From: an uncultured archaeon
Lineage (GTDB): Archaea > Thermoplasmatota > Thermoplasmata > Thermoplasmatales > Thermoplasmataceae
Assembly (NCBI GenBank): GCA_000965745.1
Contig: CP009479.1
Span: 1,994,457 to 2,058,456 of the forward strand
Direction of reading: 5' to 3'
DNA length: 64,000 bases
Numbering within the stretch: the stretch's first letter is position 1; each line of letters begins with the position of its first letter. The position numbers and the translations under genes were made by a program. Of this stretch, positions 11,757-26,211 are shown piece after piece. Below the pieces are notes generated by a model, which was not told the DNA's origin, made no database searches, and saw only the letters and a list, made by a program, of their open reading frames with translations.

Positions 11757-12509
11757 CTATTGGAAAATTGCCGGGCGCCTGCCCTTGAATTCTTTGCCGG
11801 AACTTGTGTCAAATATGTCAAAATCCACCCCGAAGGTCTCGTTCAGGTATTCTCTGTTCATTGTAGAATCAGTTTCACCGGAATGGAGGACAGTTCCATT
11901 CCTCATCAGCACAACTTCGTCCGCAAGCGAATGGACAGCCCCCAGGTCGTGCATTACAACAACGATGGTCCTGCCACTTTCCTTCAGCCGCCCAATAACC
12001 TGGTTTACAAGGAGTTGCTTATCAACATCCAGGAAAGTGGTGGGCTCGTCCATCAGCATAATCTCCGCATTCTGGTAGATGGACCCGGCAAGCGTGACCA
12101 GCCTCCGCTCCCCTCCGCTCAGATTCGAAAACTTTCTGTCTATGAGGTGCTCTATCTCGAATTCCCTCAGGGCATCAACCATATCGGTTTCGCTGTCGTC
12201 TCTGCTGTACCCGGAAACCGAAAGAACCTCCCTGACAGTGAAGCCAAGAGGATCAAAAATCTCCTGCTGGACAAATGACACCTTCCTTGACAACTCTTTG
12301 AATTCATACTCATGGAGAGCCTTTCCGTCGACCGTTATATCTCCGTGGCTGGCCTTTACCCCACCATTCAGCAGCTTCAGAAGCGTAGACTTTCCTGATC
12401 CGTTTTTGCCGATTATTCCTGTGACTGCACCCTTCGTGATGACAAGATCAGGGCATTCCAGCTGAAATCCCCCTTTCCTGTATACAACATCACTTACCCT
12501 AATGCTCAT
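11757..12509 (-). CDS. Iron-siderophore/cobalamin-type ABC importer, ATP-binding protein
   Basis: This is the ATPase of a FecCD/BtuCD-class importer. Walker A is GKNGSGKST (residues 34-42 from this start), the signature is LSGGE (130-134) and Walker B is MLMDEPT, followed by an H-loop (VVMHDLG). The gene overlaps the permease gene by about 11 bases, so the two are co-translated. The frame also has an ATG two codons earlier (12515); MSIRVSDV fits the family better. Substrate cannot be read from the ATPase; the binding protein two genes upstream belongs to the iron/cobalamin group. Confidence 0.92.
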   Translation of the reverse strand: MSIRVSDVVYRKGGFQLECPDLVITKGAVTGIIGKNGSGKSTLLKLLNGGVKASHGDITVDGKALHEYEFKELSRKVSFVQQEIFDPLGFTVREVLSVSGYSRDDSETDMVDALREFEIEHLIDRKFSNLSGGERRLVTLAGSIYQNAEIMLMDEPTTFLDVDKQLLVNQVIGRLKESGRTIVVVMHDLGAVHSLADEVVLMRNGTVLHSGETDSTMNREYLNETFGVDFDIFDTSSGKEFKGRRPAIFQ

Positions 12510-13572
12510 AAACACCTCCGGAGAGCCTTCTCAGAAGGTACATGAAGACTGGCACCCCGATCATCCCGGTGACAACCCCTATTGGGACCACCTCACCGGT
12601 AATCACTACCCTTGATATGTCATCTGCCGCAAGAAGGAAGATTGCGCCCATTATTGCAGAAGAAGGTATTACAAACCTGTTTGACCCTCCGTAAAGAAGT
12701 CTCGATATGTGTGGCATTATGAGGCCTACAAATCCTATTATCCCGCTCACTGAGACCGCTGCAGAAACGCTGAGGGTAACAAGTACTATCATGACCCTTT
12801 TCACGTTTTCTACCGATACTCCAACAGATCTTGCGTGGAACTCCCCCAGCTGCAGGGCATCAAGTTCCCTGTGATATAGTGAAATTATCAGAGAAGTTGA
12901 GATCACAATCGCTGATACTGGAAGCAGCTCTGTCCAGGTTATGCCGCTCAGGGAACCGAGAAGCCAGAAAAATGCCGCGCCCTGCAGTTTTACATTGGTG
13001 AAGAGCATGAGGGCCACAAGAGACGAAACGAACAATGATATGGCAATCCCGGTCAGAAGAAGGTAAGTCGGGCTTACCTTCCCTCCTCTGAGGGCAAACA
13101 TGTAAACTATGCCTACCACTGCAATTGAAAAAATGAAAGCCATCAGCGGAACTGTGAAGATTCCGAACAATGTCAGGCCGAACATTATTGATGCGACAGC
13201 ACCAAGTGATGCGCCGCTCGAAAGGCCTATGATATATGGCTCCGTGATTGGATTTCTGAACAGGCTCTGTATAACTGCACCCCCTATTCCCAGAGATGCG
13301 CCAACCAATATTCCTCCAATTACCTCAGGCTCCCTCAGAAAGACAATGATTCCATAGTCCTTCCCGCTGACCGTGAATGAAAGAAAGTGCCCAAGAACGG
13401 GTATCTGTTTGAGGTATATCACGATGACATCCGCGGCCTGAATTCTGACCGGCCCGATAAATGTCGACAGGATTGCCATAAAAAAAAGGAGGATAGCTGA
13501 GGCTACGATCCCTGCTATCTTTATGTTCCTGAAGGAACGCGCATTCAACCTGTCGCTCTCATTTTTGAGCAA
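12499..13572 (-). CDS. FecCD-family ABC permease (iron/cobalamin importer)
   Basis: This 357-residue membrane protein is the dimeric channel of the importer. It has about ten membrane helices and the family signature around GGAVIQSLFRNPITEPYIIG (residues 107-126), followed by GASLGAVASI. A second conserved motif, GFVGLIMPHISRLLYGG, contains the coupling helix that touches the ATPase. It lies between the binding protein gene, seven bases upstream, and the ATPase gene, which overlaps its 3' end. The order binding protein, permease, ATPase forms one operon. Confidence 0.93.
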   Translation of the reverse strand: MLKNESDRLNARSFRNIKIAGIVASAILLFFMAILSTFIGPVRIQAADVIVIYLKQIPVLGHFLSFTVSGKDYGIIVFLREPEVIGGILVGASLGIGGAVIQSLFRNPITEPYIIGLSSGASLGAVASIMFGLTLFGIFTVPLMAFIFSIAVVGIVYMFALRGGKVSPTYLLLTGIAISLFVSSLVALMLFTNVKLQGAAFFWLLGSLSGITWTELLPVSAIVISTSLIISLYHRELDALQLGEFHARSVGVSVENVKRVMIVLVTLSVSAAVSVSGIIGFVGLIMPHISRLLYGGSNRFVIPSSAIMGAIFLLAADDISRVVITGEVVPIGVVTGMIGVPVFMYLLRRLSGGVYEH

Positions 13573-13579
13573 AACACAG

Positions 13580-14557
13580 TCACCCCGTTATCAGCGGATC
13601 AGGATTATCCTGTATCCCCAACGGAAATGCCGGTAATTTAACGTTTATCCCGTAGGCTTCCTGGACCATCCAGGCAATGGCGTAGATAACCCTGAAATTA
13701 GGCTCGGTAAATATGCTCTCGTTGGGCAGGACAAAGACTTTTCCATTTTGCACTGCAGTGGAATTATTGAAGGGATACACGCTGAGAGCGGATTTATTGA
13801 CATACTGATCCAGGAATATCACCTGTGGGGAGTTGTTTGCCAGAACTTCCGGCGATATGGGGACAAAGCCACCCGTAAGATTCAGCGCGACATTCCTGAG
13901 GTGTGCATAGTCGAAGAAATCGTTGAAGAACGTGCCATTTCCGGTGGTGTAAATCCCCCCACTGCTGCTCAGGTAGTAGAAAGCAGAAAGTTCAGCGGAT
14001 GAGTTTATCTTTCCCGTTGCGTTGGATATCGCGCCCAGGGACTGGTTCATCCAGATGTTCAGCATTGAGGCATTCTTCTCTTTTCCCGTGATCTCCCCAA
14101 GAAGAGTGTTCTGCTGCTCAATGCCCGTAATCCCCGATCCTGCTCCGGCATTAAGAAATACATAATTTATTCCGGCGTCGAGGAGTTTCGTAATCTGTCC
14201 CTGGGAATAGCCTGAATCAAAAGATATAACCGCCTGCGGGCTGAGGTTGAAGATTTCCTCAAGGTTCATTGATGGATATGATCCAACTACCGGAAGGGTT
14301 GAGTTCTGGGGGTATGACCCATAACCGCTGTCACCCACAAGATAGCTGTAAGCCCCTATTGCATACAGATTCGCGGTTGCAGCAGGATCCAGTGAGACAA
14401 TTCTTGTAGTTTTGTATGAAAGATTGTCCCCGGATGAGACCGTAATTACCTGTCCCTTCTCCTGTTTATGCCCATGGATTTCATAGAAGCCAAAACCGCT
14501 AAGAAGCAGAACAGCCACCACTATCAAAGATATTATTGCTTTTATGTTGCTTTTCAT
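13580..14557 (-). CDS. ABC importer substrate-binding protein (BtuF/FepB-like)
   Basis: This 325-residue protein is the extracellular binding component. A single N-terminal hydrophobic helix (about residues 7-24) anchors or exports it. The fold is the two-lobe helical-backbone type: TRIVSLDPAATANLYAIGAYSYLVG is the classic first lobe, with NLEEIFNLSPQAVISF and the long linker helix after it. The ligand is probably an iron-siderophore, haem or cobalamin; the sequence does not decide which. It is the first gene of the operon, directly behind a palindromic operator at 14575-14601, which suggests metal-controlled expression. Confidence 0.88.
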   Translation of the reverse strand: MKSNIKAIISLIVVAVLLLSGFGFYEIHGHKQEKGQVITVSSGDNLSYKTTRIVSLDPAATANLYAIGAYSYLVGDSGYGSYPQNSTLPVVGSYPSMNLEEIFNLSPQAVISFDSGYSQGQITKLLDAGINYVFLNAGAGSGITGIEQQNTLLGEITGKEKNASMLNIWMNQSLGAISNATGKINSSAELSAFYYLSSSGGIYTTGNGTFFNDFFDYAHLRNVALNLTGGFVPISPEVLANNSPQVIFLDQYVNKSALSVYPFNNSTAVQNGKVFVLPNESIFTEPNFRVIYAIAWMVQEAYGINVKLPAFPLGIQDNPDPLITG

Positions 14558-14712: not shown

Positions 14713-16254
14713 TCAGGGAAACAGAGCGGGAATGTCCTTGGAAACGTTGGCAACTAGAAGTTTGGGACCGCTTCCCTCCGCTAGCCAGTCAAGTTCCCTG
14801 AGGTCTTTGTCAGCTATACGAGAAGGCACACCAAACGATTCTGAAATACTGGAGATATCATTTCTGAAAGTGAAATATGGGGCATTTTCCACTCCGGGAT
14901 AGAAGCTCCTTGAAAAACTCTTCAGAATAGTGTATCCTTCATTGTTGAGGACAAGTATCTTCACCGGCAGGTTATAGTGCGATATGGTCCAGAGCGTCTG
15001 TATTGTGTACATGAGCGCGCCATCTCCCACGATCTCCAGCACCTTGGGCGAATGAAGTGAGATTCCAGCGGCCGCGGGCAGGCCCCATCCGAGTTGGCCA
15101 CTCTTCGCTGTGAAATAGGATTTGTCCCTGTAGCCCATGGTTGACCTCACAAGCGGTGATGATGAAATGGCTTCGTCAACAATTACATGCCGTGAAAAAC
15201 TGTTCCTGGCCTTGGCAATAACGTATGAAGCCCCCATGCTCTTTTTCTCCCTGGCGGCAGCACTTCTGCCGGAAAGGTCAGATTCCCGCCTGTAGTTGCC
15301 AATTTTTCCAACACGGTTTTCAAGAGCCTCCATAAAAAGTCCCGGGTTGCTCGTGATATACTCGCCATGCCTGTAGCTCGGAGAAAGGGATACCGTTATG
15401 ATCTTCTTCCCCGGCAGCAGCCTTGAAGGTAGGTAAGGGTACATGGTGAGGTCACCCCCAAAGTTCAGAATCAGGTCATGTGAAAGAAGGGACATATTGA
15501 TCGACGAAGTGGCTGGCGCAAGGTCACCTGAAAATCTCTCATTGCTGCTCCTGAAAGGGGCTCTGCTTGCAAACGGCTCTGCAAAAACCTGGCATCCAAA
15601 CCTGTTCGCAAAATGTTCTGCCTTGTCAAGCATGCCGTATTCATCAAGCTCGCCCCCCATAATCACGGCAGGGCTCCTGCTTTCCGAAATGCATCTGAGA
15701 ACGTATTCGACGGCATCACTGTCAACCAGCGATGTGTTGGGTACCGAATAGCCGGCGCGGTTGTAATCAGCTTCAAGGTCCATTACGTCCATGGGGAACG
15801 ATAGGAAAACCGGCCCCATCGGAGGCTCAAGGCTGATGGAATATGCCCTTTTCATCGCTTTCTCTATGTCTTCAGCACTCTTCACTTCGTAACTGTACTT
15901 GGCAGCGTCCCCAACCAGAGACTGGAGATCATGCCAAAGCAAAGGTTCGTAGTAGGCATGCCTCGTGTCCTGCTGTCCTGCGGTTATTATCACAGGGGAA
16001 TGATTTTGCCTTGCAGTATGAATGAATGCCATGGAGTTGGCAACACCCGGCATGGCATGCAGGTTTACAAGCGCAGGCCTCCCGGAGAATTGCGCATAAC
16101 CATCTGCCATTCCCACTGCCAGTGAGTCATGAAGAGTCAGGATATAGTCGTCGACGCCTCGCAGCATGGGTATCTCAGTAGAGCCGGGATTTCCGAAGAC
16201 AGGCCCCAGCTTCAGCTCCCTGAGCGCTTCTCTGAATATTTCATATCCTTTCAT
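14713..16254 (-). CDS. Thiamin-diphosphate-dependent 2-oxoacid decarboxylase, benzoylformate decarboxylase-like
   Basis: This 513-residue enzyme has the three-domain ThDP fold. FGNPGSTEIP holds Ser25 and NLHAMPG holds His66; both match active-site residues of bacterial benzoylformate decarboxylase. The ThDP/Mg motif is GDGALMYTIQ through LNNEGY near the C-terminus. Where the family has the Glu that activates ThDP there is Asp43 (LHDSLAVG), and the second active-site His is not obvious. It should decarboxylate an aromatic or branched 2-oxoacid, or act as a carboligase. The start codon overlaps the stop of the 2-hydroxyacid dehydrogenase gene (TGATG), so the two are coupled and probably act on related substrates. 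Confidence 0.82.
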   Translation of the reverse strand: MKGYEIFREALRELKLGPVFGNPGSTEIPMLRGVDDYILTLHDSLAVGMADGYAQFSGRPALVNLHAMPGVANSMAFIHTARQNHSPVIITAGQQDTRHAYYEPLLWHDLQSLVGDAAKYSYEVKSAEDIEKAMKRAYSISLEPPMGPVFLSFPMDVMDLEADYNRAGYSVPNTSLVDSDAVEYVLRCISESRSPAVIMGGELDEYGMLDKAEHFANRFGCQVFAEPFASRAPFRSSNERFSGDLAPATSSINMSLLSHDLILNFGGDLTMYPYLPSRLLPGKKIITVSLSPSYRHGEYITSNPGLFMEALENRVGKIGNYRRESDLSGRSAAAREKKSMGASYVIAKARNSFSRHVIVDEAISSSPLVRSTMGYRDKSYFTAKSGQLGWGLPAAAGISLHSPKVLEIVGDGALMYTIQTLWTISHYNLPVKILVLNNEGYTILKSFSRSFYPGVENAPYFTFRNDISSISESFGVPSRIADKDLRELDWLAEGSGPKLLVANVSKDIPALFP

Positions 16255-17186
16255 CAGATCACTCTGAACTGGGGGTCAAGTCCCTGTATGAATTTCATTA
16301 CATTTGAGATTGTGTCCTTCATGAATCTCTGCTGGCTCTCAACTGTAACTCCGGCAATATGTGGTGAAAAGATCACGTTGTCAAGCCCGAAAAGTTCTGA
16401 TTTGAAATCAGGCGGCTCTTTTTCATACACGTCTATGCACGCCTTAATGCCTCTGGATTTGACGGCATCAATAAGGGCACCTTCGTCAACTACTCCTCCT
16501 CTTGATGTGTTTATGATTAAGGCACCATCTTTCATCTTGCTGAATTCATTCTTTCCGATCATTCCCCTCGTCTGTTCGGTGAGTGGAACATGGAGTGATA
16601 TTATATCAGACCGGGAAAAAAGAGAGTCTAGTTCCAGGAAGGTGAGGCCAAGGTCTTCTTCCATTTCCTCCTCGAGCCTGACAGTATCGTAGTAGACCGT
16701 GTTTGCTCCAAGGTGAAGCAGCTTTTCGGCCAGTTTTTTTCCTATTGCACCCATTCCAACTATCCCGAAAGTCCTGTTCATCAACTCCATGGAATTTGTG
16801 AGAACCGGCCAGTTCCCGCTCTTTATTTCGCTGTGGAAGTGCATTATATTCTTGAGCTGGGAAAGTGCCATTGCAATCACGTGCTCCGCAACACTGTCCT
16901 TGTTCGCGGTGGGTATGTTTGAAAGCATTACATTTCTCTTTCTCAGGGCCGGGATATCAACATTGTCATAGCCTGTGCTGGCGACCTGGACAAATTTCAG
17001 GTTGGGAATTCTGGAGACCAGGTTTTCATCTACTGTTGTAAAAGTGGTAACGATCAGCACTTCCGCCTCATTGGAGCCGAAATCGGTTGAGGTTACTATT
17101 TCACCTTCAGGCATTACCTGGCCAAGGGCGGATGATATCTCCTCGATCGGAAGGAATGGGGGTAGAATGGAAAGAACTTTCATCAT
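16254..17186 (-). CDS. D-isomer-specific 2-hydroxyacid dehydrogenase
   Basis: This NAD(P)-dependent enzyme interconverts a D-2-hydroxyacid and a 2-oxoacid. The Rossmann motif is GIVGMGAIGKK, and the catalytic features are the Arg in INTSRGG, the Glu in IDVYEKEPP and the His in FSPHIAGV. Length (about 310 residues) is that of short family members without an ACT domain, so a role in serine synthesis is not implied. The frame extends to a TTG at 17210, but that lies just before the minus-strand TATA box (about 17211-17219), so the ATG pair at 17183-17186 is used. It is first in the operon with the ThDP decarboxylase. Confidence 0.88.
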   Translation of the reverse strand: MMKVLSILPPFLPIEEISSALGQVMPEGEIVTSTDFGSNEAEVLIVTTFTTVDENLVSRIPNLKFVQVASTGYDNVDIPALRKRNVMLSNIPTANKDSVAEHVIAMALSQLKNIMHFHSEIKSGNWPVLTNSMELMNRTFGIVGMGAIGKKLAEKLLHLGANTVYYDTVRLEEEMEEDLGLTFLELDSLFSRSDIISLHVPLTEQTRGMIGKNEFSKMKDGALIINTSRGGVVDEGALIDAVKSRGIKACIDVYEKEPPDFKSELFGLDNVIFSPHIAGVTVESQQRFMKDTISNVMKFIQGLDPQFRVI

Positions 17187-24243: not shown

Positions 24244-26211
24244 ATGGCTGAGAAGGTTGGAATTGTTGGCGCGGGGACCATGGGTCACGGGATCGCGGAA
24301 TTATGCGCTATCTCAGGATACGATGTTGTATTGGCAGATGTTGGCCATGAAATTCTCGAGAAGGCAATGGAGAAAATTCGCTGGAGCATCGGGAAACTGG
24401 AGTCGTCACGAGCCCTGGTTGAAAACCCCGGCATCATTCTTTCAAGGATAAGAACAACAACAGAACTGCGGGAACTGGCTGGCTCGAAGTACATAATAGA
24501 AGCTGTCAAGGAAAAGATAGAGGTCAAACGGCAGGTATTGCGCAAACTCGATTCCCTGATGGGGCCCGAATGCATTTTCTTCTCCAACACTTCAACGATC
24601 CCGATCACCGAACTGGCATCAATGACTGGCAGAGAGGAAATTTTCGCAGGCCTTCATTTCTCAAATCCGCCAGTTAAGAACCCTCTTGTTGAGGTAATCA
24701 GGGGAAAGAAGACATCGGCCCGGACGGTGGGTGAAGCCAGGTCCTTTGCCATCTCCCTCGGAAAGGAAGTCATAGTGGTGGATAAGGATCTGCCAGGCTT
24801 CCTGGTGAACAGGCTTAACGACAGGCTTTTCACGGAAGCGTTGCTGATGCTGGGCGAAGGCGTCACATTCCGGGAAATTGACGCGCTCCTTAGGTTCCGC
24901 ATGAATTTTTCAATGGGAGTATTTGAGCTGATGGACTTCGTTGGAATAGACACAGTCCTTAACGCAAAGACTGAAATGATCGGCCATGGGTTTAACACAT
25001 CGCCCTCTGAAAAACTATCCGGACTGGTGGAAAAAGGTATGCTTGGAATGAAGACCGGGAAGGGGTTTTACAAGTACCAGAAACCGAGCGTGTATTCCAG
25101 GCCACTAATCCAGCCGTCTGGCAGGATGTTCAGGGTCAACCCGGTAAGGCTGTTCGCAACGGTCATCAATGAAACAGCATGGATGATCAGGAACAAAGCC
25201 GCTTCTCCGGATGATATTGAGAAGGCAATGCTTCTTGCCATGAACTGGCCGGAAGGCCCGCTTTCCATTGCAGATCGGCTTGGCATCGATAACATTGTGG
25301 GGGAACTTAACAGTCTTCACTCATCGACAGGCGAGTCACGGTACATTCCGGACTCACTGCTGCTTGAAAAACAGCGGCATGGCGATAACGGACTGCTTTC
25401 AGGAAAAGGTTTCAGGGAATGGCCCTTTGCAAGCGAAGACATCGGGCCGGTGAAATTCCAGAGGATCGACAGTTTCGCCCTTATAACTTTGAACAGGCCT
25501 GAAAAGCTAAACTCACTTTCAGAGGAGTTGTGGTCTGGGATTAGAATTGCTCTGGAGAAAGCATTGCAGGATCCAGACATCAGATCCGCCATAATAACGG
25601 GAGCAGGCAGGGCATTTTCCGCAGGGGACGATATTCAGATGATGAGGTCCTGGAAAGGGTCTGCCGATGCGAAAAGATGGTTGGACAAATATGCATCACC
25701 GCTCATCGATCTTCTTGCCTCATTTCCCAAGCCTCTGATATCAGCAGTAAACGGGGTGGCTTTCGGAGGTGGAGCTGAAATTAATCTCCTCTTTGATGTC
25801 GTAGTGGCAGCAGACAGTGCAGTATTCTCATTTTCAGAAAGCCTCATAGGCGCAATGCCGCCGATAGCATCTTCATTCGGGATCGCAGTCACTGGCAGAA
25901 GGCTCCTTCCGTATCTTCTCACAGGCGACTGGATGGCGCCGGAGAAGGCAAAGGAGCTTGGTCTGGTTGATGTTGTGACAGATGACGAAATGACATTAAT
26001 GGTGGCAATGGAATATGCAAACAGGCTGTCCAGGGCGGCCCCGCTTTCCATTCAATCAATAAAATCTGTGGCAAACCTCCACAGAACAGGCGTCCAGCCG
26101 GAAGCAAGATTTTCCCAGAACGAACTGATAATTCTTTCTTCATCTGAAGACTTTGCTGAGGGGCAGGAGGCATTCCTTTCAAAAAGGAAGCCGGTGTGGG
26201 CCGGGCGGTAA
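24244..26211 (+). CDS. Fused 3-hydroxyacyl-CoA dehydrogenase/enoyl-CoA hydratase
   Basis: This 655-residue bifunctional enzyme handles two consecutive steps of acyl-CoA beta-oxidation. Residues 1-300 form the NAD-binding and dimer domains of the dehydrogenase (GIVGAGTMGHGIAEL, residues 6-20; FSNPPVKNPLVEV; GFLVNRL), followed by a second half-domain (MNWPEGPLSIADRLG). From about residue 405 a crotonase domain follows (LNRPEKLNSLSEELW, GAGRAFSAGDDI, GVAFGGGAEI). The order, dehydrogenase first, is reversed from bacterial FadB and is typical of archaea. The GAGRAFSAGDDIQ and GGGAEINL oxyanion motifs look intact. It stands alone. Confidence 0.92.
   Translation: MAEKVGIVGAGTMGHGIAELCAISGYDVVLADVGHEILEKAMEKIRWSIGKLESSRALVENPGIILSRIRTTTELRELAGSKYIIEAVKEKIEVKRQVLRKLDSLMGPECIFFSNTSTIPITELASMTGREEIFAGLHFSNPPVKNPLVEVIRGKKTSARTVGEARSFAISLGKEVIVVDKDLPGFLVNRLNDRLFTEALLMLGEGVTFREIDALLRFRMNFSMGVFELMDFVGIDTVLNAKTEMIGHGFNTSPSEKLSGLVEKGMLGMKTGKGFYKYQKPSVYSRPLIQPSGRMFRVNPVRLFATVINETAWMIRNKAASPDDIEKAMLLAMNWPEGPLSIADRLGIDNIVGELNSLHSSTGESRYIPDSLLLEKQRHGDNGLLSGKGFREWPFASEDIGPVKFQRIDSFALITLNRPEKLNSLSEELWSGIRIALEKALQDPDIRSAIITGAGRAFSAGDDIQMMRSWKGSADAKRWLDKYASPLIDLLASFPKPLISAVNGVAFGGGAEINLLFDVVVAADSAVFSFSESLIGAMPPIASSFGIAVTGRRLLPYLLTGDWMAPEKAKELGLVDVVTDDEMTLMVAMEYANRLSRAAPLSIQSIKSVANLHRTGVQPEARFSQNELIILSSSEDFAEGQEAFLSKRKPVWAGR

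Follow-up and report, generated by a model that had tools for sequence, protein, structure and literature searches.

ThDP-dependent enzymes are activated by a Glu whose conservation is among the highest in their superfamily. According to the available excerpts of a superfamily survey (PMC3534367), this Glu is present in 94% of the superfamily and replaced by Val in 3%, and the glyoxylate carboligases, which carry the Val, are the sole documented family-wide loss. No mention of Asp at the position occurs in the same excerpts. Our literature search found no paper on a natural Asp at the activating-Glu position, nor on the Thermoplasma enzyme of the kind described here. In pyruvate decarboxylases, a change of Glu to Asp leaves a few per cent of the activity. 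The described enzymes most similar to the one examined here are the benzoylformate decarboxylases (BFDCs) of Pseudomonas putida (1BFD) and M. smegmatis (4Q9D), together with the 4-hydroxybenzoylformate decarboxylases 7ORX and 6QSI. With regard to its proposed role, the closest system is peroxisomal alpha-oxidation, in which 2-hydroxyacyl-CoA lyase (HACL1), with ThDP, cuts 2-hydroxy lipids back by one carbon and yields an aldehyde, which then passes to an aldehyde dehydrogenase.

The window, a stretch of 64,000 nucleotides, comes from a single-contig genome of 2.23 Mb that has Ferroplasma acidarmanus and Thermoplasma among its relatives and belongs to the Thermoplasmatales. Two adjoining genes on its minus strand encode an NAD-dependent D-2-hydroxyacid dehydrogenase of 310 aa (16254..17186, (-)), recognised by Pfam 2-Hacid_dh and 2-Hacid_dh_C, and a predicted ThDP-dependent, BFDC-like 2-oxoacid decarboxylase of 513 aa (14713..16254, (-)). 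Pfam and PDB searches left no doubt about the family of either protein. The one-base overlap described in the original prediction was found at the junction TGATG (16254..16256, (-)), where the A is common to the dehydrogenase stop TGA and the ThDP-gene ATG, and a GGTGAT-like motif lies upstream. The dehydrogenase may start at its second Met, at 17183, where the alignment of most homologues begins. The pair stands alone in this genome, with an iron-type ABC transporter on one side and an HD-domain gene on the other. The transporter genes (11757-14557, (-)), directly downstream of the ThDP gene and on the same strand, comprise an ATPase, a FecCD-like permease and a PF01497 binding protein, and likely serve iron/cobalamin uptake.

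The three-domain architecture of the ThDP enzyme was evident from Pfam matches to TPP_enzyme_N, TPP_enzyme_M and TPP_enzyme_C. Its best matches among solved structures were BFDCs (E 1e-64 to 3e-69, about 28% identity), and the AlphaFold2 model (pLDDT 89.9) had its closest folds in BFDC and 4-hydroxybenzoylformate decarboxylase, with TM values of 0.85-0.90. Like BFDC, the enzyme has the GNPG-S/T-xE motif, an equivalent of His70 and the GDG...N motif for Mg and the ThDP diphosphate (G410 D411 G412 ... N438; 14941..15027, (-)), and its ThDP/Mg motifs are intact. It is an ordinary member of neither BFDC nor acetolactate synthase, as had been anticipated, and its NCBIfam scores lie far under every cut-off: 321 bits against 493 for the BFDC equivalog PRK07092 and 138 bits against 538 for the acetolactate synthase TIGR00118.

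Asp43 (codon GAC, 16126..16128, (-)) occupies the expected site of the activating Glu, standard position 51, and matches BFDC Glu47 column for column in both pairwise and multiple alignments; in the model, helix 43-57 begins at this residue. The enzyme therefore has neither the activating Glu nor the Val that marks the glyoxylate carboligases. Ser25 (16180..16182, (-)) and His66 (16057..16059, (-)), which the original prediction had listed as kept, correspond to BFDC Ser26 and His70; His66 is invariant, while position 25 alternates between Ser (20 sequences) and Thr (47) within the family. The BFDC set Ser26/His70/His281 is completed differently, with Tyr272 (15439..15441, (-)) in place of His281. 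This Tyr is invariant in the archaeal clade, agrees with the absence of a clear second active-site His in the original prediction, and is shared with the M. smegmatis homologue 4Q9D. Further differences from BFDC include an Asp96-x-Arg98-His99 motif (15958..15969, (-)), which is common to the nearest bacterial relatives, where BFDC has Thr-Arg-Ala-Met, and three aligned pocket changes, Ile443 for Ala460, Ile363 for Thr377 and Thr382 for Phe397. The BFDC variant A460I accepts pyruvate (PMC9063327), and the three pocket residues, as aligned, would fit aliphatic over aromatic substrates.

We observed Asp43 in all 68 archaeal homologues (34-66% identity to the window protein), which span several families of the Thermoplasmata and include one Thermoprotei archaeon; such conservation is well past chance expectation. 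In the merged alignment, position 43 is Glu in 61 of the 62 bacterial relatives and Asp in the remaining one. Every readable family homologue (49/49) carries the Asp, including unlinked paralogues of Ferroplasma and Thermoplasma, as do the more distant families f3, f4, f14 and f15 and the Thermoprotei archaeon. The unlinked paralogues (L041-L049) occur without the dehydrogenase, and some adjoin MFS transporters. A tree of 119 sequences, built without column 43 and with the placement of one long branch (L069) unsure, needs two independent state changes at this column, one on the branch that leads to the archaeal clade and the other in the bacterial sequence L083. The latter gene (L083:7971-9668) lies between tricarboxylate-transporter (TctA/TctC-like) genes. 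Glu-type bacterial relatives (Fimbriimonadales, Alicyclobacillus, the Bacillota sequence L078, Rubrobacter) share the Asp-Arg-His motif, Ile443 and up to 39% identity with the window enzyme, but have Glu at position 43, and the nearest of them have Ala226 and no Tyr272. The ThDP enzyme is a clade-wide Asp form of a known enzyme kind, and it comes with a testable pathway hypothesis. A natural clade that spans two or more archaeal orders with Asp at this position, and whose sister sequences bear Glu, allows one to test directly how much freedom the geometry of cofactor activation has.

Only six columns, Asp43 among them, tell the archaeal clade and the bacteria apart. All alignment columns were scanned for a replacement Glu in the ThDP-binding (PYR/PP) domains and none was found; apart from column 43, acidic residues specific to the clade occur only at columns 204, 226 and 244, which belong to the central domain. 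Because none of the other clade-separating columns places an acidic residue in either ThDP-binding domain, a Glu elsewhere in the ThDP pocket, which would speak against the original prediction, is absent within the limits of sequence alignment. Glu226 (window 15577-15579), a central-domain residue, never varies within the archaeal clade and is Ala in the nearest Glu43 bacteria; it possibly changed together with Asp43 and may have a long-range compensating role. Glu226, the Asp-Arg-His patch and His42 may be regarded as candidate compensators for Asp43, the patch being older than the change from Glu to Asp since it occurs with Glu in bacteria.

The partner enzyme has the features of a D-2-hydroxyacid dehydrogenase, with both 2-Hacid_dh domains, a GxGxxG at 144-149 and an intact catalytic triad (Arg229, Glu257, His276) that is kept in 40 of 40 sequences. 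Asp167 suggests NAD as the cofactor. The protein scored 237 bits against the 454-bit cut-off of the phosphoglycerate dehydrogenase equivalog TIGR01327, and its 310 aa form a single substrate/NAD unit without the C-terminal regulatory domains of that enzyme. Of the 77 family genomes, 41 (46 when fragments are included), in 16 genera, have the dehydrogenase and ThDP genes side by side, and in nearly all linked loci these overlap or abut, with the ThDP start -4 to 0 bases from the dehydrogenase stop. Families f3, f4, f14 and f15 also have the pair, as does a Thermoprotei archaeon. This conserved overlap and synteny upholds the functional coupling that had been proposed and supports the order from 2-hydroxyacid to 2-oxoacid to decarboxylation, probably in that direction.

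Clustering of the neighbouring genes gave aldehyde dehydrogenase (ALDH, 17 loci), SCP2 (12), group III Fe-ADH (11) and alkyl-DHAP synthase (AGPS, 9) as the most common, the last being true homologues of the synthase (PDB E 6e-53). A sphingosine-1-phosphate lyase homologue (PDB E 5e-157) and a PF04185 phosphoesterase also occurred among the neighbours, along with GlpD-like and DAGK/YegS-like genes. In 15 genomes from 7 genera, an SCP2 gene is no more than 3.4 kb away from the pair (crude binomial p 7e-21), and across genomes the two co-occur (Fisher p 6e-5); Fe-ADH lies within 4.6 kb in 14 genomes. These neighbour statistics take no account of phylogeny or of incomplete genomes and are of descriptive value. 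An ALDH-FeADH-SCP2 block stands again beside the pair in f14, which belongs to another order (L170). The Glu-type Bacillota operon (L078) has the related arrangement DH-ThDP-(weak SCP2 match)-Zn-ADH-ALDH, in which the small protein is suggestive of SCP2 (Pfam E 0.037, no hhalign match). Sphingosine-phosphate lyase genes were observed near the ThDP gene in g17, G029, f4 and Alicyclobacillus; in Alicyclobacillus sp. ALC3 (L072), the Glu-type relative is also near a Zn-ADH and an acyl-CoA dehydrogenase. A lyase route was rejected as the general role, with lyase matches in only 17 of the 77 genomes, about half of them distant.

We tentatively read the pair as a two-enzyme oxidative-decarboxylation unit of lipid catabolism, in function a CoA-independent alpha-oxidation, and consider this reading quite possible. 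As a set, an SCP2 carrier, ADH, ALDH, a D-2-hydroxyacid dehydrogenase and a 2-oxoacid decarboxylase point to the oxidative one-carbon shortening of a hydrophobic acid. The dehydrogenase would oxidise a hydrophobic, lipid-derived D-2-hydroxyacid with NAD+ to the 2-oxoacid, from which the ThDP enzyme would release CO2 and an aldehyde one carbon shorter, with no CoA involved; a separately encoded aldehyde dehydrogenase would then give the acid for beta-oxidation. Asp43 would take the usual role of the Glu and protonate the aminopyrimidine N1', probably more slowly or with altered geometry. The substrate class, the direction and the Asp43-N1' contact are all presumptive. Compared with HACL1, the pair would use a free 2-oxoacid supplied by the dehydrogenase and release CO2 rather than formyl-CoA; the archaeal enzyme is of the BFDC type, and the hydroxylase PHYH was not found.

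Genomic capacity for the later steps was observed in every genome tested, each with 5-8 acyl-CoA dehydrogenases, and AMD Thermoplasmatales have complete fatty-acid oxidation gene sets (PMC3750248). The 2-hydroxylase expected of alpha-oxidation, a phytanoyl hydroxylase of the PHYH type (PF05721), was absent from 9 of 9 genomes, and P450s were present in only 4 of the 9. Phytanic acid is weakened as the specific substrate because PHYH is absent. Orthologues of AGPS and of the Fe-ADH/SCP2 genes are absent from the window genome, near the pair or far from it, and this genome carries other SCP2 and ALDH genes. We hold the lipid reading as tentative, and specific substrates as less probable, because the window genome is without these SCP2, Fe-ADH and AGPS orthologues, a general 2-hydroxylase was not found, and enzymes of these kinds could also act on amino-acid-derived 2-oxoacids. 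A wider proposal, that the archaeal Asp-type ThDP lineage and its co-translated dehydrogenase constitute a CoA-independent alpha-oxidation by which acidophilic archaea feed on ether or 2-hydroxy lipids, the isoprenoid lipids of other archaea among them, is doubtful. If the lipid role is true, these are candidate genes by which heterotrophic archaea shorten lipid chains where beta-oxidation cannot start.

The amino-acid alternative is an Ehrlich-type route, in which the ThDP enzyme would decarboxylate 2-oxoacids such as 2-oxoisovalerate, 2-oxoisocaproate and pyruvate, the dehydrogenase would interconvert these with D-2-hydroxyacids, and ADH and ALDH would clear the aldehydes. The set of ADH, ALDH, 2-hydroxyacid dehydrogenase and decarboxylase fits it equally, Ile443 resembles the pyruvate-accepting A460I, and the organisms are heterotrophs. 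However, an SCP2 carrier and an alkyl-DHAP synthase recur near the pair and are unexpected for water-soluble acids, and we regard this route as unlikely while giving it real weight. A carboligase role, in which the change from Glu to Asp would make turnover by decarboxylation slower and shift the enzyme towards forming C-C bonds (acyloin or formyl transfer), appears improbable. Glyoxylate carboligase, likewise a whole family without the activating Glu and the only such loss documented in the survey excerpts (PMC3534367), has a Val where Asp retains the carboxylate, and is not the nearest relative of the window enzyme, that place being held by decarboxylases. Among the genes that recur beside the pair, we recognised none of the type of hydroxypyruvate isomerase or tartronate semialdehyde reductase, and the Asp-Arg-His patch, whose conservation and unlikeness to BFDC might favour ligation, is older than the Asp and seen with Glu in bacteria.

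Degradation of ether lipids from the glycerol end is quite improbable. Alkylglycerol would be converted by ADH and ALDH to 3-alkoxy-2-hydroxypropanoate, by the PGDH-like dehydrogenase to 3-alkoxypyruvate and by the ThDP enzyme to alkoxyacetaldehyde. This would require no hydroxylase and would suit the AGPS, GlpD-like and DAGK-like neighbours and a dehydrogenase most similar to phosphoglycerate dehydrogenase, which itself acts on a 3-substituted glycerate, but several genomes have the pair without AGPS, among them G057 and G061, which we take to be T. acidophilum and T. volcanium; the lack of AGPS in these two also counts against the main lipid reading. We know of no precedent for such a route. 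The mandelate-like or aromatic route, unlike the coupling, the direction and the Asp for Glu of the original prediction, is disfavoured by the pocket residues Ile443, Ile363 and Thr382 and by neighbours that are lipid-type and non-aromatic (SCP2, Fe-ADH, ALDH, AGPS).

Two further loci were observed. A cluster of alkyl-DHAP synthase, GlpD-like, DAGK-like, SCP2, Fe-ADH and ALDH genes is conserved in Thermoplasmatales (L134, L143, L139, L052), also in genomes without the pair, and is a candidate ether-lipid catabolism locus. In the window, about 8 kb from the pair, a 655-aa ORF (24244-26211, (+)) resembles a 3-hydroxyacyl-CoA dehydrogenase/enoyl-CoA hydratase fusion and was judged by eye to be a beta-oxidation gene.
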